Source: Bdellovibrio sp.
GTDB lineage: Bacteria > Bdellovibrionota > Bdellovibrionia > Bdellovibrionales > Bdellovibrionaceae
DNA: 62,934 nt
Assembly (NCBI GenBank): GCA_014376935.1
Contig: JACMQO010000169.1
Coordinates: forward strand, 1 to 62,934
Direction of reading: 5' to 3'
Part shown: positions 32,107-62,798 of the stretch, one piece after another
How positions within the stretch are numbered: position 1 is the first letter of the stretch
Layout: every line of letters starts with the position of its first letter
Position numbers and translations under genes: made by a program
Notes under the pieces: model-generated
Told to the model about the DNA's origin: nothing
The model's database searches: none
What the model saw: the letters and a program-made list of their open reading frames with translations, nothing else

Positions 32107-32114
32107 GGGTAGTC

Positions 32115-33347
32115 CTATCTGATTAAGTTTTCAATTTTTACTTTTAGCAATTCCAGTTCTTTTAATAATTCGAATTTTTTCTTTTTTGAAGAAAAAAGTC
32201 TTTCGGTTGCGCTGACCAAATCGGGCGAATTTTTTATGCCCCGCTTGTATTCAGATAAAGTTAAGTCGAAGTATTTTTGTGAAAGGACTAATTTGTTTTC
32301 GTTAATTTGAAAAAGCTCAGTTAACTCGTTAGCTTTCGTTTTGGCAATCGCAAAATCAGCGCTAACGTCGTTACGCTTTTGCAATGTTAATTTTTCGGCT
32401 GAATTCGAAATGAAGTTGGCCGATTTTATTTTATAGTAAGATTCAAACCCCGTAAAAAGCGGAATAGTTACCAGAAGTGCGTATCTTGATTCATTGAATT
32501 TCATCGGGCTTTCATCTGATGGGGTGATTCGTCCGGCACTGTAAGTGAAATCAACCGAAGGTAAAAAGTCAGCGTTAGCGGCTTTACGGTCTAATTCAGA
32601 CTTTCTTTGCTGAATTTCTGCTTTTTGATAGTCCAAGGTGGTTTCGATTTTAAGCTGAGTAGTTAAATTTGAAAGTTTACCCGCATTGCTAAAATCTAAT
32701 TTTTCTAAATCAATGTCAGTGATGTCTTCGCCGAATAGTTTATTGAATATTTGATGGGTTTCTTGATGTTGCTGATGGATCTGTTTTTGTTCGATTTGTA
32801 TTTCGCTTTCGCGTAGATCAAATTCTAAGTTATCAACCGATCCTGTTAATCCTGCGGCTACTTTTCTGGCGGCCATTTGTCTTTGGGTTTGTGTGACTTT
32901 AAGTTCTTCTTCTAAAATATCTTCAAACTTATGTAGTAGAATCATATTGCTAACGGCTTCTGTTAGTTGCAAACGAAGCTCACGTTTTTTGGATTCCAAT
33001 TCTAATTTAATAAAGTCTACTTCTATCGAAGCTTGATCGGAATTGGTTTGGTCTTTAAAGCCGCGAAATATGTTAAGTCGTCCTTCAATGTAACCTAAAT
33101 ACCCTTTTTCTGTGGCGGTAATATCATCTGTTCTGTTTTGTCCCCAGCCGCCGACTGCGTTTAGCGTTGGGTAAAATGCCGACCTAGAAGCCTCACTTAA
33201 GGCCATTTTTGATTCGACTTTTTTTTGTAAAGAAATAAACTCTTGGTTTTTTTCTAAAAGGGTTTTTTCTAAAATATCTGAACCTTCAAGTGCATAAACA
33301 CTTAAAGATGAAAACAAAATCACGAAAACAAAAAGGCCCTGAGCCAT
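32115..33347 (-). CDS. TolC-family outer-membrane efflux protein (CusC/CzcC-like)
   Basis: The 410-residue protein has a signal peptide ([18 protein letters not shown]). Long periodic coiled-coil helices come in two halves, with the typical [14 protein letters not shown] and [20 protein letters not shown] segments of outer-membrane efflux proteins. It should form the outer-membrane exit duct for the RND pump encoded upstream in the same operon. No lipobox is present. Confidence 0.85.
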
Positions 33348-33368
33348 GAAATTACCTCTTTAAAAAAT

Positions 33369-33761
33369 TTATTTTTCAACCTGAAATTTGAATTCGCTTT
33401 TTTTACCTTTAAAGTCGGCCGTTACAGCCATTTCTAGGCGATAAGCTCCTTTGAAATCGACTTGGGTCACGTAGACTCCATCCTTCGATTCAATTTTGGC
33501 TGCTTCTAATTTACCTTTGGGTGCCTTGGTTGTCGCTGTGACCTTAACGTCAGATGCCGGAACATCTTTTCCATCGTGTGAAACTGGAAATAACTTAACT
33601 TCAGAACCTGTTACAACGTATTCAAGATTGAGTTCTTTACCGGCCTTCACCGTTCCGCCGTGATTGGCTTTAAGTGCACCCGGAGCATCGTCATGACCTT
33701 CGTGTGCAAAGGCGGTTAATGAACTTACGATGGCGATTGTTAGAATTATTTTGTTAAACAT
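33369..33761 (-). CDS. Periplasmic metal-efflux accessory protein
   Basis: The 130-residue protein has a signal peptide cleaved before HEGHDDAPG, an N-terminal His-rich stretch, then a beta-sandwich-like domain (KANHGGTVKAGKELNLEYVV, VKLFPVSHDGKDV). Similar HGG-type domains occur at the N-termini of CzcB/CusB adaptors and as small separate proteins in metal operons. It may pass metal to, or partly substitute for, the missing adaptor. It lies between TolC and a lipoprotein gene. Confidence 0.7.
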   Translation of the reverse strand: MFNKIILTIAIVSSLTAFAHEGHDDAPGALKANHGGTVKAGKELNLEYVVTGSEVKLFPVSHDGKDVPASDVKVTATTKAPKGKLEAAKIESKDGVYVTQVDFKGAYRLEMAVTADFKGKKSEFKFQVEK

Positions 33762-33787
33762 TATTTCTCCTTTATTGTGTTTAATAA

Positions 33788-34120
33788 TTAGTGTGAATGC
33801 TTTTCAATGAAGTCGCCTTCTTGAAATGTAACCCCAGAATCAAACTTGATCGCAGAGTAGTTGTCATTTAATACTTCAGTGACAACACCATGGCCTTTTT
33901 CGACTCTTTCGCAGGTTTTGGCTCTGGTCCCAGCTAAAGGAACGCATTTGTTACCGAAAAGTTCAACATGATCACCGACGGCAACTTCATTTTTATTTAA
34001 AGTGACATGCGCATTTCTGTCGTCAATTTTCATAGCGACAACTCCTCGATGAAGTTGATTCGTTGCACATGACGACACAACTAGTGCGCCAGCTAATAAT
34101 ACAATTGTTTTTTTAAACAT
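33788..34120 (-). CDS. Small lipoprotein in the metal-efflux operon
   Basis: The 110-residue protein has a lipobox (ALVVSSC) and a beta-rich body with three further Cys/His-rich places (GNKCVPLAGTRAKTCERVEK, GVVTEVL, EKHSH). Its ATG overlaps the end of the RND gene by 8 bp, so it is translationally coupled. Membrane anchoring and the metal operon suggest an accessory role in periplasmic metal handling. No named family was recognised. Confidence 0.65.
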   Translation of the reverse strand: MFKKTIVLLAGALVVSSCATNQLHRGVVAMKIDDRNAHVTLNKNEVAVGDHVELFGNKCVPLAGTRAKTCERVEKGHGVVTEVLNDNYSAIKFDSGVTFQEGDFIEKHSH

Positions 34121-37100
34121 TATTTTCTCCTTCGAAAATATTTTTTTGATTCATTCTTTGCACACTTTCTTCTGCTGATTTTTTGCCGAAATGATAAAAC
34201 ACTGCAGGGGTTACAAACATATCTAGTAGGGTCGAACTGATAAGTCCGCCCACAATAACGACTGCAACCGGATGAAGAATTTCTTTTCCTGGTGTTCCTC
34301 CGGCTAAGGCTAAGGGAATTAGTCCTAAGATGGCGGTCAGGGCCGTCATTAACACGGGAACTAATCTTTCAAGTGATCCGCGAATCACCATGTGTTCGGT
34401 GAATTGTTCGCCTTCGTGTTTCATTAAATGTAAGTAATGTGAAATCATCATGATTCCATTTCTTGAAGCGATCCCGCATAACGTTACGAAAGCAACTAGG
34501 CTTGCGACCGAAATTGTTTTGTCTGTTAAATAGATACCGATGATGCCGCCGATAAAGGCCATCGGAATATTGAGCATAACTTGAATCGAAATAAACGTGG
34601 ATTTGAAATGCATGTAAAGAACCGTGAAAACACCAATGATGGCGATGATGGCAAGCAAGTTCATTAATTTTGCAGCTTGTTGCTGGCTTTCGAACTGTCC
34701 GCCATAAGAAATAAAATAGCCCTGCGGTAACTGAACTTTATTATTTATTTTCGATTGAATTTCTTTAACTAAGCCGTCTAAGTCGCGGCCCGACGAATTG
34801 GCTAGAACAACGATTCGTCTTTGCGCATTTTCACGATTAACGATGTTTGGACCAGTCGATTCGAAGACGTCAGCTACTTTTTCGACGGTCACTTTTGTGC
34901 CGTCGGGTAAAAGTTTGATCGGAGTTTTCTTAATCAGTTCAAGATCTGATCTGGATTTTTCGTCAAAGCGCATGAGGACATCTATGCTTTTTTGACCTTC
35001 TAGAATTTGTCCTACAACTTCGCCCTGTAGCGCCTTTTCCATAAGTTGAGATAAGTCGCCGACCACGATTCCGTATTTAGCGGCTTCGTCTCTCATCAAT
35101 TGAATTTTTACCTGCGGGATTAGTGTTTGTTGTTCGACCTGAAGGTCGACCAAGCCAGGTGTGCCTTCAATTGATTTTTTTATCTCGGCCGCTTTAGCTC
35201 TTAGCGTGGCTAGGTCTGCACCGAATACTTTGATGGCAATTTGCGCCCGGACTCCTGAAAGTAAGTGATCGAGACGGTGAGAAATAGGTTGGCCCACGTT
35301 TATAAAAACATTTTCGATTGTAGACAGATTTTTACGAATTTCTGTCAAAACAATTTCACGTGGTCTTCCGTCATCCTTAAAGTCGACGTCGATTTCGGAA
35401 GAATGAACTCCTTCGGCATGTTCATCTTGCTCGGCGCGCCCCGTTCGACGCGAAACAGATTTTACTTCAGCCGATTTTAAAATCAGCGTTTCGGCTTGCG
35501 CACCCAGTTTATTAGACTCATCTAAAGAAATTCCTGGTTGGGCCATCATCGAAATGGTGGCTGTTCCTTCGTTGAATTTAGGCAAAAAATCGCGGCCCAT
35601 CGTCAACGAAAGGCCTAGCGCACCCAGAAACAACGTTACGGTTACACCGATGACAATATAAGGATGCTTAATTGATTTATGCAGTATTTTTGTATCCATC
35701 TTTTTAAGAAACCGAACAAGCGCGCCGTCTTTATGTTCTAAAAGTTTTCCTTTGGTTAAAAGGTATGAACATAAGGCTGGTGTAACAGTTAACGATACAA
35801 CCATAGAAGCTAATAACGAAACGATGTAAGCGATGCCTAACGGAACAAAAAGCTTTCCCTCAATTCCGCCCATACTAAATAAAGGCAGGAACACTAAGCA
35901 AACGATGACCGTAGCGATGACAATTGAATTTCTAACTTCGCTAGAGGCTTGGTAAATAACTAGCAACGTATTTTTTGGATCAGCACTTTGTTTATTTTCA
36001 CGAAGCCTGCGCAATACGTTTTCTACGTCGACGATGGCGTCATCCACAAGTTCGCCAATGGCGATGGCAAGACCCCCCAAGGTCATCGTATTGACAGAAA
36101 GACCAAAAAATTTAAAAACGATCGCTGTTAAAACAAAAGAAAGCGGTATCGCCGTGATTGTGATCATTGTCGTTCTAAAATTAAGAAGAAATAAAAACAG
36201 AACGATAAGTACTAATATGACTCCATCCCGTAAAGCTTCCTGAACATTAGCAATAGATGTTTCAATAAAATTAGCTTGTTTAAATAGATCAGGATTTAGC
36301 TGAACGTACTTAGGTAATGTTTTCTCAAATTCCTTCAATGCCTTTTCAATTTCACGAGTTAATTCTATGGTACTGGCACCGGGTTGCTTTTGAACGCTCA
36401 TTATTACGCCGGGGGTCGCGTTTACGCTGGCGTCACCACGCATGGTTTGCGGCGCTTCAACGACCTCGGCCACGTCTTTAACTAAAACAGGACGACCTAA
36501 ATGCATGCCCACAACTGAATTCAATATTTCATTTTTATCGCGAATCGCGCCAAGCACTCGAATCAAAGATTCATTTTTATCAATATTTATAAATCCACCA
36601 GTCGAATTAAGACTGATTTCTGAAAGATTGTGTTCGATATCCGCAATAGGCAGTTGCAGCCGCTGGATCTTTTCAGCCGAAAGAAGAATTTGGTACTGCT
36701 TAACGCCGCCGCCAATCGATGTCACTTGCGCTACTCCCGGAATACTTAACAGTCGCGGACGTATCGTCCAGTCGGCGATTGTTCTTAAATCCATCGGACT
36801 TATTTTCGGATCTTTAGACGTCAAACCAACTAACTGTATTTCGCCCATGATCGAAGCGATTGGCCCCATGATAGGAGTAATATTTTTAGGAATCTTTTCT
36901 TTAGCTAACGTTAATTTCTCTTGAACAAGTTGACGGTTTAAAAAAATATCCGTTCCCCAAGAAAATTCCACATAGACAATACTTAGGCCGACACCCGAGC
37001 TTGAGCGAACTCTTTCAACGCCGGGTAGGCCATTTAAAGATGTTTCTAGAGGGAAGGTAACTAGCGTCTCAACTTCTTCAGGTGCTAGTCCAGAAGCTTC

Positions 37101-37253
37101 AGTCATAATAGTTACTGTAGGACGATTTAAATCTGGGAAAACATCAATTGGTAAATTCGCCGCGATCCAACCACCATAGACAAGTAATAGCGCTGCCGAA
37201 GCAATCACTAAAAGCCTATGTGACAACGAAAATTTGATAATACGATCAAGCAT
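34113..37253 (-). CDS. CusA/CzcA-type heavy-metal RND transporter
   Basis: The 1046-residue inner-membrane protein is a full-length HME-RND pump with 12 membrane helices and two large periplasmic loops. Visible signatures are FPDLNRPTVTIMTEASGLAP, GLPGVERVRSSSGVG, the acidic helix-4 motif GELVDDAIVDVENVLRRL near residue 400, and GRDFLPKFNEGTATISMM. It would drive metal from the periplasm out through the TolC partner. The GELVDDAIVDVEN form differs from the Cu-type DAAIVMIEN and the Zn/Co-type DGAVVMVEN motifs, so the metal is not certain. AGGAGAAG precedes the ATG. No CusB-type adaptor gene is found in the operon. Confidence 0.9.
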   Translation of the reverse strand: MLDRIIKFSLSHRLLVIASAALLLVYGGWIAANLPIDVFPDLNRPTVTIMTEASGLAPEEVETLVTFPLETSLNGLPGVERVRSSSGVGLSIVYVEFSWGTDIFLNRQLVQEKLTLAKEKIPKNITPIMGPIASIMGEIQLVGLTSKDPKISPMDLRTIADWTIRPRLLSIPGVAQVTSIGGGVKQYQILLSAEKIQRLQLPIADIEHNLSEISLNSTGGFINIDKNESLIRVLGAIRDKNEILNSVVGMHLGRPVLVKDVAEVVEAPQTMRGDASVNATPGVIMSVQKQPGASTIELTREIEKALKEFEKTLPKYVQLNPDLFKQANFIETSIANVQEALRDGVILVLIVLFLFLLNFRTTMITITAIPLSFVLTAIVFKFFGLSVNTMTLGGLAIAIGELVDDAIVDVENVLRRLRENKQSADPKNTLLVIYQASSEVRNSIVIATVIVCLVFLPLFSMGGIEGKLFVPLGIAYIVSLLASMVVSLTVTPALCSYLLTKGKLLEHKDGALVRFLKKMDTKILHKSIKHPYIVIGVTVTLFLGALGLSLTMGRDFLPKFNEGTATISMMAQPGISLDESNKLGAQAETLILKSAEVKSVSRRTGRAEQDEHAEGVHSSEIDVDFKDDGRPREIVLTEIRKNLSTIENVFINVGQPISHRLDHLLSGVRAQIAIKVFGADLATLRAKAAEIKKSIEGTPGLVDLQVEQQTLIPQVKIQLMRDEAAKYGIVVGDLSQLMEKALQGEVVGQILEGQKSIDVLMRFDEKSRSDLELIKKTPIKLLPDGTKVTVEKVADVFESTGPNIVNRENAQRRIVVLANSSGRDLDGLVKEIQSKINNKVQLPQGYFISYGGQFESQQQAAKLMNLLAIIAIIGVFTVLYMHFKSTFISIQVMLNIPMAFIGGIIGIYLTDKTISVASLVAFVTLCGIASRNGIMMISHYLHLMKHEGEQFTEHMVIRGSLERLVPVLMTALTAILGLIPLALAGGTPGKEILHPVAVVIVGGLISSTLLDMFVTPAVFYHFGKKSAEESVQRMNQKNIFEGENNV

Positions 37254-50517: not shown

Positions 50518-51438
50518 CTAAGAACTTATTCCTAATTGGTCGTAGCGCTTTTGAATGGCAAGAATAGTCACACCAAATAAGACGGCTACGATAACCAACA
50601 CATTTGTTAGGAGACCTTCAGTTCCAAATGAAATCTTAATGAGGATCGTAGAAACAACAAAGCCAGAATTTCTAATGACCATGCTAAAGCGGTCCGTTCG
50701 TAAAAAAGAAATTAAAAGAAGTAAAACATCTGCAAGAATCAAAATCGTGAAAAATTGATCGAAAAATATAGCATCAATTCGATAGACTTTATCAAGTGGT
50801 ATAACTGTCTGATAAAAGCTGCGATCGATCCATTCAATAAGGCTGTAGGCCGCGATTCCAACTAATACAGGTACTAACAAAGTGGCCATCCAATTTTTCA
50901 TCCGAATGAATAAAGAAGTTCCTTCAGATAATTCCAATTTTTGTGGACCTTTATAATCTTTTTGTGGATTTAAGTTGTAAAAAACAGAAATCAGAAAAAA
51001 TAGAATCAACGTCGCAATTAAATCATAAGTAAACACGAGGTCACCCTTGACAGAAAACCAATCTGAAGTCAGCTGCAGATTGCCAAGGTCCTTAAATAGT
51101 CGACGAATTAAAATCAAAGTGACGATCTCATACTGTTTACCGATATAGACAGTGATCGATTTCGGCAAATAATAAACAAGCAAATAAACTTCATAAACTA
51201 AAATAAATGAAAAAGGAGTGTATATAGCTGAGATCGGATTTTTGAATAAATGGATGCTATCGCCTAAATTGATAAGCCCAAAATCGACAAATAAAATGAT
51301 GAGCAGATGAATGATGAAACTTGCAATGGCAATGATCAAGATGGTGGCTTCGATCCGATTTTTGCTTTGTTCAGATAGAAATTTGACAAACAAAGATTCA
51401 AATATTTTTTCACTGAAAAATTTTAATTTAACAATCAC
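50518..51438 (-). CDS. Multi-span membrane protein of unknown function
   Basis: The 306-residue protein (GTG start) has about seven hydrophobic helices, with a charged loop around NPQKDYKGPQKLELSEG. No transporter or sensor motif was recognised. Ribosome-binding sequence near the start is weak (GGAGG is 17 bases away). It stands alone between the metal region and the carotenoid cluster. Confidence 0.6.
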   Translation of the reverse strand: MIVKLKFFSEKIFESLFVKFLSEQSKNRIEATILIIAIASFIIHLLIILFVDFGLINLGDSIHLFKNPISAIYTPFSFILVYEVYLLVYYLPKSITVYIGKQYEIVTLILIRRLFKDLGNLQLTSDWFSVKGDLVFTYDLIATLILFFLISVFYNLNPQKDYKGPQKLELSEGTSLFIRMKNWMATLLVPVLVGIAAYSLIEWIDRSFYQTVIPLDKVYRIDAIFFDQFFTILILADVLLLLISFLRTDRFSMVIRNSGFVVSTILIKISFGTEGLLTNVLVIVAVLFGVTILAIQKRYDQLGISS

Positions 51439-51545: not shown

Positions 51546-51746
51546 ATGAAAACATCAAAAATTAAAAATATTATTTTTTGGACGCTTATTGGTGCCTTCT
51601 TTGGCATTACTTTTGGCGCTACGGCTGCATTTTTTGAAAATGGTCCGTCCGTGATTGTAGGAATAGAACAATCATGGTGGTGGTTCGCCATCGCTGGATT
51701 TTTAAAAGGGGCAACAGACCCAGAATTACAAAAGCAAAAGTTGTAA
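51546..51746 (+). CDS. Small two-helix membrane protein
   Basis: The 66-residue protein has two membrane segments (IFWTLIGAFFGITFGATAAF and WWWFAIAGFLKG) with GPSVIVGIEQS between. It converges on crtB with only two bases between the stop codons. No family known. Confidence 0.5.
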   Translation: MKTSKIKNIIFWTLIGAFFGITFGATAAFFENGPSVIVGIEQSWWWFAIAGFLKGATDPELQKQKL

Positions 51747-51748
51747 GG

Positions 51749-52561
51749 CTAGATAAACCGCGACCTAATCACGGCACAAAGACCTAAAAATAAACATCTT
51801 AACTTGACAGGAAAGCCTACGACGACCCTTTCGTTTAAACTTTGCGGCATGTTTCGAATAATTTTTTTCCCAATCGCACGATATAAAAAAGAAGCGCAGC
51901 CAACTGCTATAGCCACTCTGAATGGCAGAAAGCGAAGACCTTGATTGCCTTTTTCATACATTTCTTCTGCCCTGGCCAATAAATATTTTACGGTTACTAG
52001 ACTTCGACTTGGTGATTCTGTCATTTCTTGAGCCGTGCACTGATACTCCATTAATTTACGAGGCAAATAAATTCGCTTATTTTGTGCATCTTCTAATACA
52101 TCTCGGCTTATGTTTGTCAGTTGCATCCCAATCCCTAAAGCAGAAGCACATTTAAGAGCTTGTTCATTCGTAACTCCTGATAAAGAACAAAAAATAAGTC
52201 CAACGACTCCTGCAACACGATAACAATAAACTTCAAGCTCTGAAAATGTATCATACCCCTTATTTTCAATATCCGAGCGAAGCCCTTCGAAAAATTCTTC
52301 GAAATAAACAAAAGGTATATTTTTATCCTTGATCAGTGTTTTAAGCCCTGCAGCAATGGGCTCGTGAGTGCCATCGACTAACTGAAGCTTTAAATTTTGA
52401 AGGTCCGTAAGACTTGAATTAGAAGAATCGATCACGTCATCGCAGTGTCTAAGCCACGCGTACAAAGTGTATATGTTTGAACGCATTTCTCTTGGCAAAA
52501 AAACGGAAGCTAAAGCAAAAGTTTTTGATCCTTTGGCGATCACCTCACGGGGAGATGTCAA
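51749..52561 (-). CDS. crtB: Phytoene synthase
   Basis: The 270-residue enzyme condenses two geranylgeranyl diphosphates to phytoene. Both aspartate-rich motifs are present: LRHCDDVIDSS and GMQLTNISRDVLED. The KTFALASVFLP and YCYRVAGVVGL segments also match the squalene/phytoene synthase family. Its start overlaps the end of crtI by 17 bp. It is the last gene of the leftward crtE-crtI-crtB operon. Confidence 0.95.
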   Translation of the reverse strand: MTSPREVIAKGSKTFALASVFLPREMRSNIYTLYAWLRHCDDVIDSSNSSLTDLQNLKLQLVDGTHEPIAAGLKTLIKDKNIPFVYFEEFFEGLRSDIENKGYDTFSELEVYCYRVAGVVGLIFCSLSGVTNEQALKCASALGIGMQLTNISRDVLEDAQNKRIYLPRKLMEYQCTAQEMTESPSRSLVTVKYLLARAEEMYEKGNQGLRFLPFRVAIAVGCASFLYRAIGKKIIRNMPQSLNERVVVGFPVKLRCLFLGLCAVIRSRFI

Positions 52562-54077
52562 CGGTGTGTCCCTTAAAATATCCTGACTGAATATCAGAAA
52601 GAATAAGCTCAGCGGTGGCTTTTGCCGAATTCACAACTCCTGGCACACCAGCTCCTGGATGAGTACCCGCTCCCACAAAATAAAGTCCCGAAAGTTGAGG
52701 ATCTCTGTTATGAGTTCGAAAATATGCACTTTGGGTCAAGATCGGTTCAGTCGAAAAAGCTGAACCCAAGTGTGAATTCAAAGTTTCTTTGAAGTCGTCA
52801 GGTGTAAAAATCTTTTGCGTGACGATATGCTTCGTTAAATCAGGTAAATAACGATCTTCAATGTATTTTAAAATTTTAGCAGCGTATTTTGGGCCTTCGA
52901 CTTTCCAATCAATTTTTAAATTCCCTAGGTGTGGAACCGGTGAAAGCACATAAAAAGCTTCGCAGCCTGGCGGAGCCATTTTTTCATCTGTTCGTGTCGG
53001 CGCATGCAAGTATAACGAAAAATCATCAGGAATCTTATTTCCGGCTCCGAAAATCTCGGACAATAATTCTTTGTACCTAGCACCAAATAAAATATTATGG
53101 TGGGCCATTTCAGGATATTGCCTGTTTGTTCCAAAGTAAATTAAGAACAAAGACATACTTTGAGTTTGTGATAATACTTTTTTACGACCTTTGTCCGCTT
53201 TTTTTTCATTTTTTAATAATTGTGTGTAAGTGTGAACTACGTCTGCATTACTAATGATCAAATCGAAACTGAAAGTCCGACCCTCCTTAGTTTGCAAACC
53301 TTTAACTCTGTGTCCGTCAGTTAAAATTTTATCAATTTCAGAATTCAGAAAAAGAACGCCCCCTTTTTCTTTGAAAAGTTTGACCATTCCGTTCACGAGA
53401 GCACCTGTTCCACCGCGGGGAAACGAAACTCCCCATTTTCTTTCCAGAAAGTGAATGAGAGTGTAGATCGAAGACGTTTTAAAAGGATTTCCCCCGACAA
53501 GAAGCGAATGAAAACTAAATGCTTGTCTGAGCTCGGGGTCTTGAATGAATTTAGCTACTGACTTATAGACAGACCTGTAGGCCGCAAGCCTCACAAGCTG
53601 GGGAGCTGCTTTTAACATGCTCGACCAGTTGATGAAAGGAACATGGGCTAATTTTGTATAACCCTCATGAAAGACATCGGCCGTGTAATCTAAAAATTTT
53701 TGATAACCTTCAACATCTTGAGGATTTTTATCTTTGATTTGCTGAACAGTTTGTTCGAGATCATTTGAGTAATCGAATTTAAAGCCGCTTTCCCAAAATA
53801 ATCGATAAAAGGGAAATACCGGCATCAGCTCGACGTAATCAGAAAGTTTTGCACAGGCCGAACCAAAAATTTCTTCGAGCGCTTGCGGAGCCGTGATCAC
53901 AGTCGGGCCCGCATCAAAAATAAAGCCTTTGTCTTTGTAGACGTAGGCTCGCCCGCCTGGTTGATCGCGTTTTTCGAACAAAGAAACTTGATGCCCAGCC
54001 GCTTGCATTCGAATAGCTGCAGCTAAACCACCGAACCCACTGCCAATCACGGCCACTTTTAAAGAATTTTTAACCAT
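52545..54077 (-). CDS. crtI: Phytoene desaturase
   Basis: The ATG at 54077 overlaps the crtE stop by 8 bp and gives 510 residues, the usual CrtI size. The FAD/NAD-binding N-terminus reads VAVIGSGFGGLAAAIRM, followed by PGGRAYVYKDKGFIFDAGPT. The C-terminal signature is LSGLYFVGAGTHPGAGVPGV. It introduces four double bonds to make lycopene at the membrane. A longer in-frame start at 54149 lies inside crtE and is unlikely. Confidence 0.95.
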   Translation of the reverse strand: MVKNSLKVAVIGSGFGGLAAAIRMQAAGHQVSLFEKRDQPGGRAYVYKDKGFIFDAGPTVITAPQALEEIFGSACAKLSDYVELMPVFPFYRLFWESGFKFDYSNDLEQTVQQIKDKNPQDVEGYQKFLDYTADVFHEGYTKLAHVPFINWSSMLKAAPQLVRLAAYRSVYKSVAKFIQDPELRQAFSFHSLLVGGNPFKTSSIYTLIHFLERKWGVSFPRGGTGALVNGMVKLFKEKGGVLFLNSEIDKILTDGHRVKGLQTKEGRTFSFDLIISNADVVHTYTQLLKNEKKADKGRKKVLSQTQSMSLFLIYFGTNRQYPEMAHHNILFGARYKELLSEIFGAGNKIPDDFSLYLHAPTRTDEKMAPPGCEAFYVLSPVPHLGNLKIDWKVEGPKYAAKILKYIEDRYLPDLTKHIVTQKIFTPDDFKETLNSHLGSAFSTEPILTQSAYFRTHNRDPQLSGLYFVGAGTHPGAGVPGVVNSAKATAELILSDIQSGYFKGHTVDISP

Positions 54078-55149
54078 AGGCACCCATGACTTTTTGAGCG
54101 AGCTGTTGAAGCTCTTTCCAATCAGTTCTTTGATTGAGTTCATAATCAAATTTCAATAAATGACTGCTCAGCTGATCAAAAGTTTCTGACATTAATTTTT
54201 TTGCTTGAGCCTTAGAAAATTCGATCAGCGGATGATTTTTTAAATCCAACATCAATTCTTTTTGAACATTCGTTTTTGCTTTAACGAGAACACTCACTTG
54301 TTTTTGAAATTTTAAATACTCAGATGCGGAAAAATATTCGCCTGCACAAATCCAAATCCAAGTGGGTCTGCCAAGAAGAAGATCTTGACTGATTTGATCA
54401 TTCTTTAAAGAGTACTCACCAAGATCGTTGAAACTTTGCAAAGCATAACCAAAGTTCAGTCCAAAGTTTTTAAGAGCTTCACGAACTTCGGGATGAACTC
54501 CACAAGCGACGGCACCAAGTTCGGTAGCAAGCGACATCAAAGCTCCTGTTTTAAGTTTCAATGCAGATATCGAAAGCTCACGCGCTCTGTCTTGAGACAA
54601 TTCATCGACTCGAACACCAAGATCGAGAGCTTGTCCGAAATGCCCCTTGATCATGGCTTGATGGCAAAGACGATTCACAGCCAGTTCAATCCGAGGCTCA
54701 AGTTCCATTTTTTCTATCAGTGAAAGGGCCCAAAAATAAAGCCAATTCCCTGAATTTATTGCTAACGGAACACCAATTTCGGTATGCAAAGATGGTTTCC
54801 CGCGTCGGGTTAAGGCGCCGTCTTGAATATCGTCTATAATCAAAGATCCGCCATGTAATGCTTCAAGCAGGTTTGAAAATCTGACGCTCATTTCTTTTTG
54901 ATATTGCTTGGTGAATACAAGAGTTTTGTCAGAGCACAAAGAAATAGAGAGCGCAACTAACCGCGCTCGGAATAAATTTGAGCTTTTATTCGAAAATTTT
55001 TGAATCGGTTTAAAAATAACTTCATTCAATTCTTCGCTGCAAAATTTGCTGATTTCGCTTCCTAATAAAGACGAAAGTTCATCTAGACCAATTAGAGAAT
55101 CATCGACCTTTGTCAGTTTTTTTTTGAAATCCAAATCTATATTGTTCAC
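54070..55149 (-). CDS. crtE: Polyprenyl (geranylgeranyl) diphosphate synthase
   Basis: The 359-residue prenyltransferase supplies C20 diphosphate for phytoene. The first Asp-rich motif DDIQD (106-110) is intact and followed by GALTRRGKPSLHTE. The second, normally DDxxD, reads NDLGE (241-245). GSLIIDDIQ and KTGALMSLATELG are family-typical. It leads the leftward operon and its start faces the rhodopsin promoter across 124 bases. Chain length is inferred from pathway context. Confidence 0.9.
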   Translation of the reverse strand: MNNIDLDFKKKLTKVDDSLIGLDELSSLLGSEISKFCSEELNEVIFKPIQKFSNKSSNLFRARLVALSISLCSDKTLVFTKQYQKEMSVRFSNLLEALHGGSLIIDDIQDGALTRRGKPSLHTEIGVPLAINSGNWLYFWALSLIEKMELEPRIELAVNRLCHQAMIKGHFGQALDLGVRVDELSQDRARELSISALKLKTGALMSLATELGAVACGVHPEVREALKNFGLNFGYALQSFNDLGEYSLKNDQISQDLLLGRPTWIWICAGEYFSASEYLKFQKQVSVLVKAKTNVQKELMLDLKNHPLIEFSKAQAKKLMSETFDQLSSHLLKFDYELNQRTDWKELQQLAQKVMGAYG

Positions 55150-55273: not shown

Positions 55274-56035
55274 ATGACAACACTTAGTTCTGTCCAGTAT
55301 ATGCTGGTCTACAACACGTTCTCCTTCACGATAGCAGCGATGTTTGCCTCCTTCATTTTCTTCATCGTAGGAAGATCACAAGTTGGTGAAAAATATCGTC
55401 CAGCCCTTTTGGTTTCAGGTCTTGTTGTAGCTATTGCCTGCTATCACTATTTTAGAATATTCAATAGTTGGGAATCTGCTTTCAACCTGATAAACGGAGA
55501 ATACGTTCCATCTGGAAAGCCATTTAACGATGCTTACAGATATGTTGACTGGTTGTTAACAGTTCCGTTGTTGTTAGTTGAGTTGATTGCTGTACTTGCA
55601 CTGCCAAAAAAAGACAGAGAAGGTCTTTTTGGTAAATTAGCAATTGCTGCTTTCTTGATGATCGCTTTGGGATATCCAGGTGAACTTTCAAGTGACACAG
55701 CTACGCGCGCTGTTTGGGGAACTCTAAGCTCGATCCCATTCGCGTACATTTTGTACGTCCTTTGGAGCAAATTGGGAGCTTCTCTATCAAGCCAACCTGC
55801 TTATGTGCAAGTGTTAATGAAAAACATTCGTTTGTTATTGTTATTCACTTGGGGTTTTTACCCAATCACTTACATGCTTCCAATGTTTGGAATTCAAGCT
55901 CAATCATCACTCGTTGGAGTACAAATTGGTTACGCAATAGCAGACGTTCTTGCGAAAGCTTTTTATGGCATTATGATTTACTGGATTGCTTATGCTAAAT
56001 CTGAAGCCGATGGATCACTACCAGCTAAACACTAA
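55274..56035 (+). CDS. Xanthorhodopsin-like light-driven proton pump
   Basis: The 253-residue protein has seven membrane helices. The retinal lysine is K228 in YAIADVLAKAFYG, with counter-ion D224. Helix 3 (YRYVDWLLTVPLLLVEL) gives D92, T96 and E103, the DTE set of outward proton pumps. L100, at the PR105 position, predicts green absorption. H58 (CYHYFR) matches the His partner of the proton acceptor. W148-G149 (AVWGTLSS) matches xanthorhodopsin W155-G156, where Gly in place of the Trp of bacteriorhodopsin leaves room for the carotenoid antenna. The sequence follows xanthorhodopsin closely throughout. Retinal can come from the Blh domain encoded next door. Confidence 0.95.
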   Translation: MTTLSSVQYMLVYNTFSFTIAAMFASFIFFIVGRSQVGEKYRPALLVSGLVVAIACYHYFRIFNSWESAFNLINGEYVPSGKPFNDAYRYVDWLLTVPLLLVELIAVLALPKKDREGLFGKLAIAAFLMIALGYPGELSSDTATRAVWGTLSSIPFAYILYVLWSKLGASLSSQPAYVQVLMKNIRLLLLFTWGFYPITYMLPMFGIQAQSSLVGVQIGYAIADVLAKAFYGIMIYWIAYAKSEADGSLPAKH

Positions 56036-56127: not shown

Positions 56128-58140
56128 TTAAACCTTTGATTTAAAGTAAAATTTAAACTTGTAAAAGCGTTTCAACATGATCGAATGAGACACCGTCAAA
56201 GCACCAAGAAATAAAAATAAATAGGGCCAAAAGTTTATTAAACTATCCGAGTAAAAAACAACTCCAACAAGTGAAAGACTGGCTAAAATAGTAAAAGGTG
56301 CCGCCTCTTTCAAATAATGACTTGCAGACCAGTTTAGAAATTTTCTTTGTTGAGCTATCGTATTCCAAGAATGCCAAAAGCAAAAAAAACTCAAAAACCC
56401 AGGAATCAATGGCAATTTCCAAAAAACAAAACAAAGAAAAAAAGTTGAAAGAACAACCGGAACTCTTCGGCCCAGAGCTTTGAATTCATACCTAGCTAGC
56501 AATTTTGCCGAAACTAAAGCAAAGAATGCAAGTGTGAGCCCTCCGATTCGAGCTTGGTCAATTGAAAGAAAATTTCCAAATTCCGAATCTCTTAGTAAGG
56601 TTTGAAGAATAACTTTTGCAGCCTCCCAATGAAATAAAGGAGCCATCAGAGAAACTGCCAATCCCCAAACAATTGTCAAAATTCTGACTCTAAATTGATC
56701 ATTAGAAATTTTCAAAGCGCGCAAAAATTCATTTTCGCCAAAATGATCTGCAGATAAGAAGATGAAAAAAACAAGTGAAGCCAGCGGACTTATCAACCAA
56801 AGAATAAAAAAACTAATGAATCCAGCCAAGTAGACGCTATAAAATTTTAATTTCGATAGTTTTACTTCAATTTTATGATCTATAGACCCGTGCGAAATAC
56901 CTAAACTAAAAAGTCCAATGACCGGAACAAGCCATAGAAAAATAGCGCCAACTTGATGGCCTGCGTAAACGAATGAAGTCGAATTTGCTAAAAGTAAAAT
57001 ACCTGCGACAAATGGAAAAGGGTAATTTAAAATCAGTTGCTGCAAAAAATTTTTCCACGGAAGCTTGTAGAAAATTTGAATTTCTTCGATGAAACTTGTT
57101 TTTTCGTCTAGAAAACGAAAAAGAACATCGCTAGAATTCTGAGAAAAAAGTTGAGGAAATATTTCTGAAATCACAGAACCATTGGACTTCATAATACTAA
57201 TCAACAAAACATCATAAACCCTGTATCGCCAATGAAATAGACTTGGTGACTTATTAAAACGCTGCTCATCTTGATTTCTGATAAAAGAGTAACCAGTGCT
57301 GGCTTTAATTTGTCCTGCAGCCCCACCAATTGAGGTAATATGACTGTTTTCAAGTGAACTTGAAAACAGAGGCCATGGATCCAGGGTCATCGGAATAGCC
57401 CCTTTTTCAATTTGTCGGATTTTAAAATCAGAAAGATTTAATTTCTTTAATAAATAAAGACGCAATTCCTTTTCATATTCATCAGCTGATAAAAGAGTTT
57501 GTGAGAACAAAGTGAATTCGACCAAACCGATACGTTTTGAAAAAGGCAGAATATAAATAAATCGAACTTCATTTTTCTGCTCGACTCTAAAGTCCATCAA
57601 ATCAACAACAGATTCATCGAAAAAATCAAAATCAGTCTCAATCTCAAGACCAAAAAAATGCTGTATCAGGTCCGGCGAGCCCTGCGTGAGCGAACTCCAA
57701 ACTTTTTGAGCATAAATTTTTTGGTTATCCTGGGTCTTAATGACAACGTGATCTTTAGCCTCGGTGACTTCTTTGGCCGCTGTGATTAAGATTTCAAATC
57801 TTGGATCACTGAATATTTTTTTATGCATTTCGCGATAAAAAACGTCTCCGGGAATACGTTCGTAAACAAATTCATCGAAACTTTTAATCAGTCCTTTTTC
57901 TTGATCTTGAGAAGTGATTCGAAATTGATTATACCGATGAGATACCAAATGCTGGTGAGGATGATTTAAGTCTGTTTTTTTTCTCCATGTACAAAATGTT
58001 CTATGACAAAGATTTTGAGGATCTGGGTCTAAAATTAAAACCCTGGCGTCGTTCGCAATCGTCGAAAGCAGCTTTTCGGCTTTGGGCAAACCTGAAAGGC
58101 CTGCACCTAAAATGACATGATCGTAAATCATCATTAGCAT
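56128..58140 (-). CDS. crtY-blh: Lycopene cyclase - beta-carotene 15,15'-dioxygenase fusion
   Basis: The 670-residue protein joins two enzymes. Residues 1-345 are a CrtY-type FAD-dependent lycopene cyclase, with HVILGAGLSGL at the start, LCHRTFCTWR near 45 and GGAAGQIKASTGYSF near 275. Residues 365-670 are a Brp/Blh membrane dioxygenase that cleaves beta-carotene to retinal, with its iron-ligand histidines visible in SHGSIDHK (417-422), SADHFGE (466) and FWHSWN (590). The fusion couples beta-ring formation to retinal release. The ATG overlaps the stop of the preceding glycosyltransferase gene; the third or fourth codon (ATG) could also be the start. Confidence 0.9.
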   Translation of the reverse strand: MLMMIYDHVILGAGLSGLPKAEKLLSTIANDARVLILDPDPQNLCHRTFCTWRKKTDLNHPHQHLVSHRYNQFRITSQDQEKGLIKSFDEFVYERIPGDVFYREMHKKIFSDPRFEILITAAKEVTEAKDHVVIKTQDNQKIYAQKVWSSLTQGSPDLIQHFFGLEIETDFDFFDESVVDLMDFRVEQKNEVRFIYILPFSKRIGLVEFTLFSQTLLSADEYEKELRLYLLKKLNLSDFKIRQIEKGAIPMTLDPWPLFSSSLENSHITSIGGAAGQIKASTGYSFIRNQDEQRFNKSPSLFHWRYRVYDVLLISIMKSNGSVISEIFPQLFSQNSSDVLFRFLDEKTSFIEEIQIFYKLPWKNFLQQLILNYPFPFVAGILLLANSTSFVYAGHQVGAIFLWLVPVIGLFSLGISHGSIDHKIEVKLSKLKFYSVYLAGFISFFILWLISPLASLVFFIFLSADHFGENEFLRALKISNDQFRVRILTIVWGLAVSLMAPLFHWEAAKVILQTLLRDSEFGNFLSIDQARIGGLTLAFFALVSAKLLARYEFKALGRRVPVVLSTFFLCFVFWKLPLIPGFLSFFCFWHSWNTIAQQRKFLNWSASHYLKEAAPFTILASLSLVGVVFYSDSLINFWPYLFLFLGALTVSHSIMLKRFYKFKFYFKSKV

Positions 58141-59270
58141 TTAGGGTCATTGATTTTGCGACCCTTCCAGTAGATATTTTGATAAAAATGATTTTTCAAA
58201 ACTAAAATAGAAAAAATATTCAGCACCAAAAGCGAAGGCCAAATTAGAAAAAATTGTAGAATCGACTGAAAGATCGATTGACCAAAAAGCCGAGCCGCGC
58301 TGAATCGAAGTAAAAAAATAAAACTAACTCCCATCCATAAATGAAGCGTAACCCCTTCGTTAACCCAGAAAGGAAAGAAAAAAATAAAATCTAAGCATGC
58401 CAATAAAAAGATAAAATTAAAAGGATTTCCGCCATAAATTTGAATCAAATTTTTTGAGAAACCTGTCACCATTGAATCCCAATTTGAATACATGCAAACT
58501 TGAATATCTTGAGTGGCTATGACTGGAATCATTCCGCCTGTTGATTTTCTAACAAGCTCTTTAGCTAATTGAATATCTTCTAAGGTATTCCGACCTAACG
58601 CTTGATGGCCCCCTAAAGTTTCATAAGCTGACTTCTTGATTGCAAGCCACTGACCATTTGCCATTTGCATCGATTCAATTTTCCAGTTCCAAGCAAAACC
58701 AAGCGGAAGACTCATCGTCAGCGGTATTTGCATGATCCAAGGAATGACAAGCTTCTCTAAAAATCCAGATGAAATAATTGTAGGGAGCCCACTCAAACCT
58801 GAGGCTTGGGGATAGTGCTGAAGAAGAACTAAAGTTCTTTCAACCGCTTCTGATGAAATGATGACATCTGCATCACAGAAAATCAGAACTTCGCCTTTCG
58901 CCATTTGGGCCAGCTGGTGGCAAGCCCAATTTTTTCCGCGGAATTCTGAATGAACGGGCAAAGGTTTACCTTTTAAAACTTGATAACTGATCGAACCATC
59001 GGCTAGTAATTTTTGAGCGATTAAATCTGTCTGATCATCAGATTCATCATCTAACAAAAGAATCTCAAATTTTTTGTAATTTGAAGAAATTAAGCTGGGT
59101 ATTAGGCGAACCAAATTATGAGCTTCGTTACGGGCCGGAATTAACACGCTTGCTGTTGGTAATTCCGGCGCTGATCCCACTTTGACTTGCTGAAGTCTAA
59201 ACGCTGTGAAGTAATTCACGATCGCTAAAGTAGAAAGAATAAATAAAAAAACAAGTGCCACTATTTCCAT
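58134..59270 (-). CDS. cruC: Family 2 glycosyltransferase, CruC-like
   Basis: The ATG at 59270 overlaps the acyltransferase stop and begins with a membrane helix (MEIVALVFLFILSTLAIVNY). The GT2 domain follows: SVLIPARNEAHNLVRLIPSL, LLLDDESDD, the DxD-type LIFCDADVII, and NTLEDIQLA. Three C-terminal helices anchor it. Beside cruF and an acyltransferase gene it fits CruC, which attaches a sugar to the tertiary hydroxyl of monocyclic carotenoids. Without the context a general GT2 would be the safe call. Confidence 0.8.
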   Translation of the reverse strand: MEIVALVFLFILSTLAIVNYFTAFRLQQVKVGSAPELPTASVLIPARNEAHNLVRLIPSLISSNYKKFEILLLDDESDDQTDLIAQKLLADGSISYQVLKGKPLPVHSEFRGKNWACHQLAQMAKGEVLIFCDADVIISSEAVERTLVLLQHYPQASGLSGLPTIISSGFLEKLVIPWIMQIPLTMSLPLGFAWNWKIESMQMANGQWLAIKKSAYETLGGHQALGRNTLEDIQLAKELVRKSTGGMIPVIATQDIQVCMYSNWDSMVTGFSKNLIQIYGGNPFNFIFLLACLDFIFFFPFWVNEGVTLHLWMGVSFIFLLRFSAARLFGQSIFQSILQFFLIWPSLLVLNIFSILVLKNHFYQNIYWKGRKINDPKC

Positions 59271-59905
59271 TCGGAATCTTTCATAGAATAAAGCTGTTGG
59301 GTCCAATCTAAACTGGCTGCAAGCAGATTTTTTTCGGTTAATGCTGCAAGACTGTTCTTACTTACTGCTTCACTTCCACTTTTGATCAATGACCCCACTT
59401 TAATTAAGGCTGTAGGCTTCATGAATTGAAACGGCTCAATATGGATGGCCGCCGATAAAATTTGAACGGGGTGTAATATTAGCATTAATTCTTCAATACC
59501 CTTTTTAAAAATCAAGGGTCGAAGATTTTGCGGCCTAAGCTCGCCCTGTGGAAAAAAACAAACGAAATGATCTTTGAGTTGATTGAACACACGTTGATTG
59601 TGCTCTTTGTCTTGAGGGATAAGACCAACTGCCCCGCAAAGCCGAAAAAAAGGAAACTTATTAAGCTCACTTTCAAGCATCACGACTTTAAAATCTGTTT
59701 TTGCTTTAAGCTTTTTAAAAACTTCATAAACAAAAAATCCATCCCACCAACTGCTGTGGTTCGCGATCAGCAGAATGGGTTGATTGCGATTGATTTCGTG
59801 TTCGACTTCGGAAATATCGATAATGATTTTATGAAAAGAAAATCGAAATCTGATTCCTAAGTAAAAGTCTAACAATTTCAGAGCGCATACTTTGATCAGG
59901 CTCAT
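59261..59905 (-). CDS. cruD: Glycerol-phosphate-type acyltransferase, CruD-like
   Basis: The 214-residue protein has the PlsC motifs ANHSSWWDGFFV (HxxxxD) and FFPQGELRP, and a hydrophobic tail. The family acylates phospholipid precursors. In carotenoid clusters with CruC and CruF, such a protein (CruD) acylates the carotenoid glycoside, as in salinixanthin. It overlaps cruF at its start and cruC at its stop, so the three genes are coupled. The substrate is inferred from context. Confidence 0.75.
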   Translation of the reverse strand: MSLIKVCALKLLDFYLGIRFRFSFHKIIIDISEVEHEINRNQPILLIANHSSWWDGFFVYEVFKKLKAKTDFKVVMLESELNKFPFFRLCGAVGLIPQDKEHNQRVFNQLKDHFVCFFPQGELRPQNLRPLIFKKGIEELMLILHPVQILSAAIHIEPFQFMKPTALIKVGSLIKSGSEAVSKNSLAALTEKNLLAASLDWTQQLYSMKDSEWK

Positions 59906-60765
59906 TCTACGTTGATTCTTCTAAAATTTCGGATTCCGCCTGTTTGAGTGCTGATCCAAAAACAAAAAGTAAAAGCAAGCCCTGTTGCCGCCACTGAAAT
60001 CCAAAGCTGGGACGCAATTGATAAACTTAAAGGAAGCATCAGATTTACAGCATAAAATTTAAGTGGAAACTGGCTCGTTTGCCATTTTTGAGGTATTTTA
60101 ATTCGACTGAGTTCAAAGCAACCGATGATTAAAATTCCGGTCACGAACCAACCAAATAAATTCGAAAGAGGAATTTTCAAGAACGAATCAACAGGTTTTT
60201 CCCAATACCAGTAAGAAGTTAAGTGGCTCATGGCAGGGTCTAAGGTAAGGTCCCAAGAAACCAGCAAGAACGAACCCAGAATCGTTTTTGCAAACGGCCA
60301 TTGGCGATCCCCTAAAACCTGCTCCGCTAGAAAATAACTAGAAAATGCCATAAAAAACCAACTCAAAGGCACAAAAAAAGGAACTTGTCCGGCCAGTTTC
60401 CAGCCTAACATATCAGAGTAAGTGTACTTACCAAATGGAATTCCATATGTGGTACCTCCGTATTCCATTATAAAACTAATGGTAAAAGCTGCTAATAAGC
60501 AGAAATACCATTTTTTATTCAGATCTTTTTTGCAATGTAAAACCATCACCACAAAACCTAGAAAAATTTGTAATTGAGCAAAAAGTTTAAACGAAACCGC
60601 AAAGATTGCGGGAGCCCATGAAAAATAACTTAAGAGCTGAGGGTTTAAAACAAAAGTGACATAACCAAAGATAGAAATAGCATTAACTAAAATGAGTAAA
60701 ATCATTTCTGATTCATAACTTGTAAGCCTTGCCTCATCAACTCTTATGTTGATATCTTGGTTCAC
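59902..60765 (-). CDS. cruF: Carotenoid 1',2'-hydratase, CruF/DUF422 family
   Basis: The 287-residue membrane protein has about eight helices and the family core EYGGTTYGIPFGKYTYSDML, followed by LAGQVPFFVPLSWFFM and LLVSWDLTLDPAMS. CruF adds water to the psi end of gamma-carotene-like or acyclic carotenoids, creating the hydroxyl that CruC glycosylates. The GTG at 60765 overlaps the start of the divergent ketolase gene; ATG 60705 is an alternative that would free the intergenic space. It heads the leftward carotenoid-tailoring operon. Confidence 0.9.
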   Translation of the reverse strand: MNQDINIRVDEARLTSYESEMILLILVNAISIFGYVTFVLNPQLLSYFSWAPAIFAVSFKLFAQLQIFLGFVVMVLHCKKDLNKKWYFCLLAAFTISFIMEYGGTTYGIPFGKYTYSDMLGWKLAGQVPFFVPLSWFFMAFSSYFLAEQVLGDRQWPFAKTILGSFLLVSWDLTLDPAMSHLTSYWYWEKPVDSFLKIPLSNLFGWFVTGILIIGCFELSRIKIPQKWQTSQFPLKFYAVNLMLPLSLSIASQLWISVAATGLAFTFCFWISTQTGGIRNFRRINVE

Positions 60766-61461
60766 GTGATCGGAATATTCATCGCTTTTTCAATTTTTTT
60801 TTCTTGGCTGATCGCTTTAACTCTGGCGCTCACTCAAGTCCAATTAACCGGCCTATACAGTATTCTTCATTACGCATGGTTGGTTTTTTTCATTCAATTT
60901 TTATTTGTTGGGATTTTTATAACTGTCCACGACGCGTGCCATGGCTCTGTTTCACCGCGGTACCCTTCTATCAATCTGTGGATAGGTCGTACCTTTGCAT
61001 TTATCTATGCGGGTTTAATTTTTGATACACTTCAGAAAAAACATGCAAAACATCATCTTCACTCAGGAACACATTTAGATCCCGACTTTCATCAGGAAGG
61101 ACGAAGTTCTTTGATCTTTTGGCTTTTGCGATTTTCAAAGCAATATGTCAGTGTTAGACAAATTCTTACGATGTGTGTTTTCGCTCAAATCTTGATGCAC
61201 GGATTTCACTTGGCCGAGATCAATGTTTTTGCTTTTTGGGTGGCACCATCGCTGCTCAGCAGTCTTCAGCTTTTTTATTTCGGCACTTATCTACCCCACC
61301 GAAAACTAAAGAATTTAACTTTTACAGATCGCCATCATACCCGAAATTTTAAGATTCCTTTTTTCGCATCATGGATTAGCTGTTATCATTTTGGAGCTTT
61401 TCATCACAGGCATCATCTGAAACCCAGATTGGCATGGTTTCAACTCTCTAAAAATGAATAA
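60757..61461 (+). CDS. crtW: Beta-carotene ketolase, CrtW type
   Basis: The 234-residue di-iron membrane enzyme has the His boxes of CrtW in order: HDACHG, KKHAKHHLHSGTH, TDRHHTR and FHHRHHLKP, plus LPHRK before the third box. CrtW adds a 4-keto group to beta-ionone rings. Its length and boxes separate it from CrtZ hydroxylases, which are shorter. The start is TTG 60757 or GTG 60766; no good ribosome-binding site is seen. It is transcribed away from cruF. Confidence 0.88.
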   Translation: MVHVIGIFIAFSIFFSWLIALTLALTQVQLTGLYSILHYAWLVFFIQFLFVGIFITVHDACHGSVSPRYPSINLWIGRTFAFIYAGLIFDTLQKKHAKHHLHSGTHLDPDFHQEGRSSLIFWLLRFSKQYVSVRQILTMCVFAQILMHGFHLAEINVFAFWVAPSLLSSLQLFYFGTYLPHRKLKNLTFTDRHHTRNFKIPFFASWISCYHFGAFHHRHHLKPRLAWFQLSKNE

Positions 61462-62030: not shown

Positions 62031-62343
62031 ATTTATATTCTAGGGTGATTAAAATTTAACTCAAGCTTATAAATTAGAAAAAAATAATAATTCTTTGAAT
62101 TGATTTTCACACGCCAAATTGAATAGCTCCACTTTTTATTTTATTATTCGACTAGAGAAAGCAATATGTGAAAGTTGTCACTTGGCAAAAACTTATCGTG
62201 GAACAGAATTTTACATAATGAGATGTCACTCTCCTTATTTTAATGTGCCGTCGATACGGCACATTAACTTGCGCGAACAATAAAAATATAAAAAACTGCC
62301 AAAGCATACTGAGCCGAGAGTAGAACCGTAGAACCCTGATTCC
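62031..62343. other. AT-rich intergenic stretch with an 11-bp hairpin
   Basis: No gene is visible here. At 62241-62266 there is a perfect inverted repeat, TAATGTGCCGT and ACGGCACATTA, around CGAT. No T-run follows it, so an operator or structured site is more likely than a terminator. The first recombinase-flanking repeat lies at 62320-62341. Confidence 0.55.
62320..62341 (+). repeat. Direct repeat, left copy
   Basis: A 22-base element built from GTAGAACC twice (GTAGAACC-GTAGAACC-CTGATT). It recurs at 62656-62676 as GTAGAACC-GTAGAACC-TGATT with one base missing. The two copies bound the recombinase fragment. Confidence 0.7.
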
Positions 62344-62667
62344 TTGAATCCTTGGGCAGGATACCAGATGGTTAAAGCTTCTTGGACTGCGATTATCAGT
62401 GAAAAATTATTTCACGAAGTTCAGGATATTCTAGAAGAAAATTACAAATTGGAACGACGCCGGATTAATGATGTCGAAAAAAGAATATTTTTACTTTCAG
62501 GAATTTTATCGTGCGGGGAATGTGGTAGACCACTTTGCGGTCGATCAGCCCATGGCAAAGGCCAAGTCCATAGATATTATGCGCACGCTTTTAAGCGAAA
62601 TGATGGAACAAAGTGTTCGGTAAAAAGAATTCGTGCTGATGATGTTGAACAGGTTGTAGAACCGTAG
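62344..62667 (+). pseudogene. Serine recombinase C-terminal fragment
   Basis: About 107 codons match the C-terminal part of large serine recombinases: TAIISEKLFHEVQDILEEN, then a zinc ribbon (ILSCGECGRPLCGRSAHG, YYAH, KCSVKRIRA). The N-terminal catalytic resolvase domain, and most of the recombinase domain, are absent. An in-frame TAG lies 13 bases upstream of the apparent start. It is therefore a remnant, bounded by direct repeats and close to a tRNA gene. Confidence 0.75.
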
Positions 62668-62676
62668 AACCTGATT
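62656..62676 (+). repeat. Direct repeat, right copy
   Basis: Second copy of the GTAGAACC-GTAGAACC-TGATT element, overlapping the last codons of the recombinase fragment (VVEP, stop). It starts 336 bases after the left copy. Confidence 0.7.
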
Positions 62677-62722
62677 AATTTGATTTGATATTTTTTGAAA
62701 ATTTATTTTGTTGAAAAGTAAA

Positions 62723-62798
62723 TGGATGGGGTAGAAGGACTTGAACCTTCGAATGATAGAATCAAAATCTATTGCCTTACCAACTTGGCGATACCCCA
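62723..62798 (-). tRNA. tRNA-Gln (TTG)
   Basis: On the minus strand a full cloverleaf can be drawn: acceptor TGGGGTA/TACCCCA, D arm GCC-AAGTTGGTAA-GGC, anticodon stem ATAGA/TCTAT with loop TTTTGAT (anticodon TTG, Gln), and T arm GAAGG-TTCAAGT-CCTTC. CCA is encoded. It is the only tRNA gene in the window. Confidence 0.93.

Follow-up and report, generated by a model that had tools for sequence, protein, structure and literature searches.

Which carotenoid a given rhodopsin uses has been described as poorly understood (PMC12308411), and the locus analyzed here raises that question for a xanthorhodopsin (XR) of the Bdellovibrio group. The stretch under study (hereinafter the window) comprises 62,934 nucleotides of one contig from a metagenome-assembled genome (MAG), which was searched in full (3,270,856 bases in 192 contigs, 99.5% complete) and contains XR as its only rhodopsin gene. 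We infer that the MAG is LF-bin-439, which Zeng et al. 2020 (PMC7701988, Table 1) label Bdellovibrio and list with other phototrophy-gene MAGs of Greenland's Lille Firn glacier.

The first-pass annotation of this DNA had pointed to an antenna-carrying XR in this group, which is not a novelty: Kin4B8, a proton-pumping XR of a freshwater Bdellovibrio, draws energy efficiently from bound zeaxanthin and lutein and has been solved by cryo-EM (PMC13093654, PMC12308411), and the MAG, if correctly matched, has stood in a published phototrophy-gene table since 2020. What appears unreported is the agreement between the carotenoid pocket and a linked pigment cassette, a crtY-blh fusion, and a small XR-linked protein. 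The surrounding cassette, absent from the first-pass annotation, is more telling evidence than XR alone.

Xanthorhodopsin and its predicted carotenoid pocket

The XR open reading frame encodes 253 residues, starts with ATG preceded by AAAGGA, and closes with an in-frame stop codon. The protein matches Pfam Bac_rhodopsin (E = 8.7e-40), and its top solved-structure matches are psXR (9wfa), Gloeobacter rhodopsin (GR, 6nwd), Kin4B8 (8i2z/7ytb) and Salinibacter XR (SrXR, 3ddl), with E values of 1.9e-95 to 9e-86 and identities of 58–61%, bearing out the XR-family likeness claimed in the first-pass annotation. An AlphaFold2 model with 31 homologues as input (mean pLDDT 91.4) superimposes without gaps on GR (model residues 2–247 on 31–276, 246 aligned, 1.6 Å) and on psXR (3–247 on 26–270, 245 aligned, 1.1 Å), with structural Z scores of 32.5–35.0 to psXR, Kin4B8, SrXR and GR. 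The window protein has the seven-helix microbial rhodopsin fold with the Schiff-base lysine and is nearest to XR and GR. The pump set D92/T96/E103, the counterion H58 and the Schiff-base K228, all read in the first-pass annotation, are present and invariant across all aligned sequences. A dN/dS of ~0.05 against an 89% identical homologue indicates that XR is under purifying selection.

Sequence alignment places G149 on Kin4B8 Gly153, GR Gly178 and SrXR Gly156, the last as previously proposed, and in the gap-free superpositions of the model G149 falls on GR Gly178 and psXR residue 172, which is also Gly. A bulky residue at this position, named in the first-pass annotation as the observation that would count against an antenna site, is not found, and the carotenoid fenestration is open in the model. 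Gly is kept in 11 of 11 members with >70% identity to the window XR. The carotenoid-lock and alignment motifs of GR (T179/T182/F185/P226/I227; PMC9151804) correspond to T150/S153/F156/P197/I198 here, with a single Thr-to-Ser replacement.

The positions that distinguish antenna types lie at Kin4B8 residues 205/208/209, compared in Table 2 of PMC12308411, which read M/M/F in the window XR (M201, M204 and F205), M/M/A in SrXR, L/M/L in GR and A/S/Y in Kin4B8. In Kin4B8, Ser208 is required for zeaxanthin binding (S208A binds 2%) and good energy transfer depends on Tyr209; at 208/209, SrXR and GR, which bind keto carotenoids, carry Met/Ala and Met/Leu (PMC12308411). The window XR has the hydrophobic pair M204/F205 there, as in the keto-carotenoid SrXR/GR subtype, and none of the polar pairs of the hydroxy-carotenoid subtype (Ser/Tyr, Thr/Asp or Thr/Glu). 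Judged from these residues, Y200, M201, M204 and F205 form a predicted hydrophobic keto-carotenoid pocket of the XR/GR type, unlike the Ser/Tyr pocket of Kin4B8. Met followed by Phe or Met occupies 208/209 in every member of the window clade, and the nine other MAGs with the cassette read M/M/F or M/M/M. The first-pass annotation had left the choice between a hydroxylated and a ketolated carotenoid open; pocket residues and linked genes together make a ketolated antenna plausible, and Met/Phe at 208/209 speaks against the hydroxylated one.

Whether ketolase presence tracks pocket polarity was also considered over all XR hosts. Polar pockets occur in 0 of 13 hosts with CrtW and 10 of 21 without it (p 0.005); the direction is as expected, but significance is lost once relatedness is considered, and CrtO-like sub-cut-off matches blur the association. 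Two loci, L010 and L012, combine a keto-type pocket with no detected CrtW. In two close relatives of Kin4B8 (L040:10001-10756 and L043:10001-10759, 91% identical to it), which likewise have no CrtW, Ala replaces the fenestration Gly, and carotenoid binding may differ.

The linked pigment cassette

XR is surrounded by predicted genes for retinal and carotenoid synthesis (Table 1). crtE, crtI and crtB lie upstream of XR on the minus strand; crtY-blh, the glycosyltransferase, the acyltransferase and cruF converge on XR from the other side, and a divergent crtW follows. The four genes from crtY-blh to cruF overlap end to end, which suggests that they form one operon.

Table 1 Predicted features of the XR locus, with window coordinates and basis of assignment
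Feature	Coordinates	Strand	Basis
306-aa multi-helix membrane protein, often beside the cassette	50518..51438	-	No Pfam or NCBIfam family
66-aa protein, two predicted membrane helices, XR-linked family	51546..51746	+	Homologues near XR; no Pfam or NCBIfam match
crtB, phytoene synthase	51749..52561	-	Pfam SQS_PSY 1.1e-56; CrtB equivalog 1.7e-48, under cut-off
crtI, phytoene desaturase	52545..54149	-	TIGR02734 1.8e-199, over cut-off
crtE-like polyprenyl (geranylgeranyl) diphosphate synthase, divergent from XR	54070..55149	-	Pfam polyprenyl_synt 1.1e-35; under cut-offs of all GGPP synthase equivalogs
XR, predicted proton pump with keto-type carotenoid fenestration G149/Y200/M201/M204/F205	55274..56035	+	Pfam, alignment, structure model
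crtY-blh fusion, lycopene cyclase (~residues 1-385) and Brp/Blh beta-carotene 15,15'-dioxygenase (~405-656)	56128..58140	-	Lycopene_cycl 1.8e-44, BCD 1.7e-30; blh_monoox over cut-off
Family 2 glycosyltransferase, candidate carotenoid glycosyltransferase	58134..59306	-	Glycos_transf_2 3e-19; HpnB/CruG-like, under cut-offs
PlsC-like acyltransferase, candidate carotenoid-glycoside acyltransferase	59261..59905	-	Pfam Acyltransferase 3.3e-8; position in cassette conserved
cruF, carotenoid 1',2'-hydratase	59902..60765	-	Caroten_synth 8e-47; CruF equivalog 3.6e-39, under cut-off
crtW, beta-carotene 4-ketolase	60757..61461	+	CrtW equivalog 5.2e-61, under cut-off
Large serine recombinase fragment (zinc beta ribbon)	62344..62667	+	PF13408 6.5e-13
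tRNA-Gln, right flank of cassette	62723..62798	-	

The linked candidates cover 4-ketolation (crtW), hydration of the acyclic end (cruF), glycosylation and acylation, all of them scoring below NCBIfam equivalog cut-offs, as does CrtB; the glycosyltransferase and acyltransferase are assigned by family and position alone. Whole-genome searches return one CrtW gene, one lycopene cyclase and one CrtI-family gene above cut-off, the cassette crtI, with no second CrtI or CrtD above cut-off and, at an E threshold of 1e-50, nothing CrtO-like. With no CrtD found, no step accounts for the salinixanthin 3',4' double bond, and CrtI might perform both desaturations. The genome, at 99.5% completeness, also contains no member of the FA_hydroxylase (CrtZ) family, which leaves the host without an obvious route to the 3-hydroxy carotenoids preferred by Kin4B8. 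Read with the pathway logic of PMC5822342 and general knowledge, the gene content predicts retinal together with a monocyclic carotenoid bearing a 4-keto group and an acylated 1'-glycosyl group, similar to salinixanthin or myxobacton.

The crtY-blh fusion carries the only BCD-family gene of the genome. Brp/Blh dioxygenases presumably share four conserved histidines, the putative iron ligands. H417, H466 and H590 are present in the cassette Blh; the second histidine of HxxxH, present in most other aligned rhodopsin-linked Blh, is Thr594 (motif WHSWNT), and H422 is invariant in the cassette subfamily without this histidine. Given the missing residue, the retinal-forming activity of the cassette Blh is putative. 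A model of the fusion (8 sequences, mean pLDDT 78) matches geranylgeranyl-reductase-type flavoproteins over its CrtY half, and none of the 50 matches listed covers the Blh half.

Full-length crtY-blh reading frames occur in six of the ten cassette loci, the window counted (with L009, L013, L015, L016 and L017); L159, L160 and L161, from other genomes of the phylum, add three more. Blh stands alone, with no fused CrtY, in L010, L011 and L014. We found no paper on bacterial CrtY-Blh fusions in the literature searched, whose coverage is incomplete. The four-domain CrtIBY-Blh protein of the protist Thecamonas trahens likewise joins a lycopene cyclase to a C-terminal Blh in one polypeptide; its cyclase is of the CrtYc/d type and CrtI and CrtB are fused to it as well (PMC10016063), whereas the window protein combines only a bacterial CrtY-type cyclase with Blh. 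In one cassette genome the fusion has lost most of its CrtY part and retains Blh (L008:7206-8534, minus strand), with a separate lycopene cyclase on another contig (L142). Two genomes of the Kin4B8 type carry a CrtI-CrtB fusion as one reading frame of ~820 aa (L115:1474-3930 and L117:1465-3969, both plus strand).

The cassette recurs, whole or in part and in several gene orders, in nine other Bdellovibrionota MAGs (L008-L011 and L013-L017), whose XR proteins are 73–89% identical to that of the window; the homologues of LF-bin-57 and LF-bin-124, MAGs from the same study (PMC7701988), reach 89% and 87% identity. Scanning the remaining 70 XR loci with the cassette profiles gave no linked cruF or acyltransferase, CrtW at one locus, and a weak glycosyltransferase match at one. 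The window XR falls within a clade of ten sequences exclusively from Bdellovibrionota (SH-aLRT 97), and among named genomes its closest relatives are MAGs titled Pseudobdellovibrionaceae and Bdellovibrio sp., in line with the Bdellovibrionota-type genome suspected in the first-pass annotation; Kin4B8 groups separately with L040, L043, L067 and L005. A rhodopsin-like match was found in 6 of 100 relatives searched, and Blh in exactly the same six; both are absent from most members of the genus.

A proposed keto-carotenoid antenna and its alternatives

We consider it probable that XR uses light to pump protons outward, with a keto-carotenoid bound beside retinal as an additional light-harvesting chromophore and both pigments supplied by the cassette. 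CrtE, CrtB and CrtI would produce lycopene, which CrtY would convert to gamma- and beta-carotene, and the fused Blh domain would cleave beta-carotene into retinal for K228. CrtW would place a 4-keto group on the ring of the monocyclic carotene, CruF would hydrate C1'-C2' at the open end, and the glycosyltransferase and acyltransferase would add a sugar and esterify it, giving a pigment like salinixanthin or myxobacton. The keto ring would enter the G149 fenestration beside the retinal ring and hand on its excitation, D92 would take the Schiff-base proton, and E103 would reprotonate the Schiff base. From the sequence we infer that XR pumps, that it binds a carotenoid and receives energy from it, which pigment this is, and what the enzymes do. 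This proposal draws on the pump residues and fold, the fenestration Gly with the GR motifs, the keto-type pocket, the linked pigment genes, the conservation of the cassette and purifying selection, and is favoured by the matching occurrence of XR and Blh among the relatives and by the missing CrtZ. Against it stand the Blh without its second histidine, the lack of a CrtD, the sub-cut-off scores of CrtB, CruF and CrtW, the loss of the CrtW/pocket association with relatedness, and the two loci with a keto-type pocket and no CrtW.

The pump could instead use retinal alone in vivo; the keto-carotenoid glycoside would then serve as a membrane pigment or a photoprotectant where ice and strong light prevail, and the fenestration would be open by ancestry. 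Gly is indeed kept in most aligned XR-family proteins regardless of nearby pigment genes, and salinixanthin is also made by Rhodothermus marinus, in which no rhodopsin gene is detectable (PMC5822342). We nevertheless regard this account as unlikely: at the specificity-determining positions the pocket fits a keto pigment, XR repeatedly occurs alongside the pigment-finishing genes across diverse Bdellovibrionota, and an unused antenna site is often bulky (Trp in 24% of GR homologues; PMC9151804), yet Gly persists in all the closest relatives of the window XR. Still less should one expect XR to use a hydroxylated carotenoid in the manner of Kin4B8, with zeaxanthin or lutein scavenged from glacier algae or cyanobacteria. 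Kin4B8, likewise a Bdellovibrio protein, has a preference for 3-hydroxy carotenoids (PMC12308411), and its C-terminal end is almost identical to that of the window XR (AKSEADGSLPA); however, Met here replaces Ser208, essential for zeaxanthin, and Phe replaces Tyr209, identity to Kin4B8 is only 60% and the two fall in separate clades, and the host has its own ketolase gene. The most improbable account is that the contig was mis-binned and the cassette stems from another glacier organism, since MAGs whose isolate and site codes differ, each titled as a Bdellovibrionota group, contain this XR clade and cassette as well, even if the source is a MAG and the two closest homologues come from the same metagenome.

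A keto-carotenoid antenna, which we prefer, would bring the window XR close to SrXR with its salinixanthin, a 4-keto acyl-glycoside carotenoid. The two share 58% identity, the D/T/E set, the fenestration Gly and a hydrophobic pocket; SrXR belongs to another phylum, and in the window the rhodopsin lies in a cluster with predicted pigment genes, crtD was not found and the antenna is a prediction. GR and psXR, at 60–61% identity, share the lock and alignment motifs, a Met/Leu keto-type pocket and the close superposition; they are cyanobacterial, and GR binds echinenone or canthaxanthin, not an acyl-glycoside. Kin4B8 shares the bacterial group, the fenestration Gly and the C-terminus, and differs in its pocket for 3-hydroxy carotenoids and its poor energy transfer from keto carotenoids. 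The salinixanthin clusters of R. marinus likewise combine crtB, crtI, crtY and a ketolase with an acyltransferase (of the CruD type there), with CrtO, no CruF and no rhodopsin (PMC5822342), as against CrtW, CruF, XR and a CrtY fused to Blh in the window.

Pocket chemistry and linked pigment genes agree within one bacterial group, beside a sister type of opposite preference, and the window XR and Kin4B8 form a natural pair for testing what makes an antenna keto or hydroxy. As a self-contained candidate unit of pump, retinal and antenna, the cassette could be moved into Escherichia coli.

A small XR-linked protein and the flanks of the cassette

The least expected result of the analysis is the 66-aa protein encoded beside crtB, whose family has homologues in 15 XR loci, the window counted. 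In eight of these (L012, L038, L045, L050, L055, L060, L062 and L065) the homologue lies directly 3' of XR on the same strand, in loci titled Bdellovibrionota, Chloroflexota, Planctomycetota, Ignavibacteria, Bacteroidetes and Tanganyikabacteria. Thirteen residues are invariant in the family (G..FG..FG..A..F..GP....G......WF...G). Among 769 genomes of two phyla there are six strong matches, all in XR-bearing genomes: four are located ~1 kb or less from XR and two (the window and L009) within the cassette. We tentatively propose a dedicated XR partner, a two-helix subunit that might dock on the pump and help to hold or load the carotenoid antenna or set the oligomeric state, a role we think possible although short of probable. 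To our knowledge, a small auxiliary subunit is undescribed for the XR pump family, and no paper on a small protein beside XR was found in the literature searched, which was incompletely covered; the linkage suggests a possible overlooked subunit of XR pumps.

The neighbouring 306-aa membrane protein adjoins or sits inside the cassette in L008, L009 and L014 and is also encoded on the L067 contig. Its candidacy as an XR partner is weakened by its presence in two genomes without XR (G034 and G076).

On the right flank, 16-bp direct repeats (62320-62335 and 62656-62671) bracket the recombinase fragment next to tRNA-Gln, a possible scar of mobility or integration spanning 62320-62798. Together with the patchy distribution, this arrangement suggests that the cassette may have been horizontally transferred. 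In Tardiphaga, Zeng et al. reported XR operons in the vicinity of tRNA genes and of mobile elements (PMC7701988). Elsewhere on the contig lie a DNA photolyase/cryptochrome family gene (26242-27516, plus strand) and a heavy-metal efflux set comprising an RND pump, an outer membrane efflux protein and a P-type ATPase (29755-37253, minus strand).
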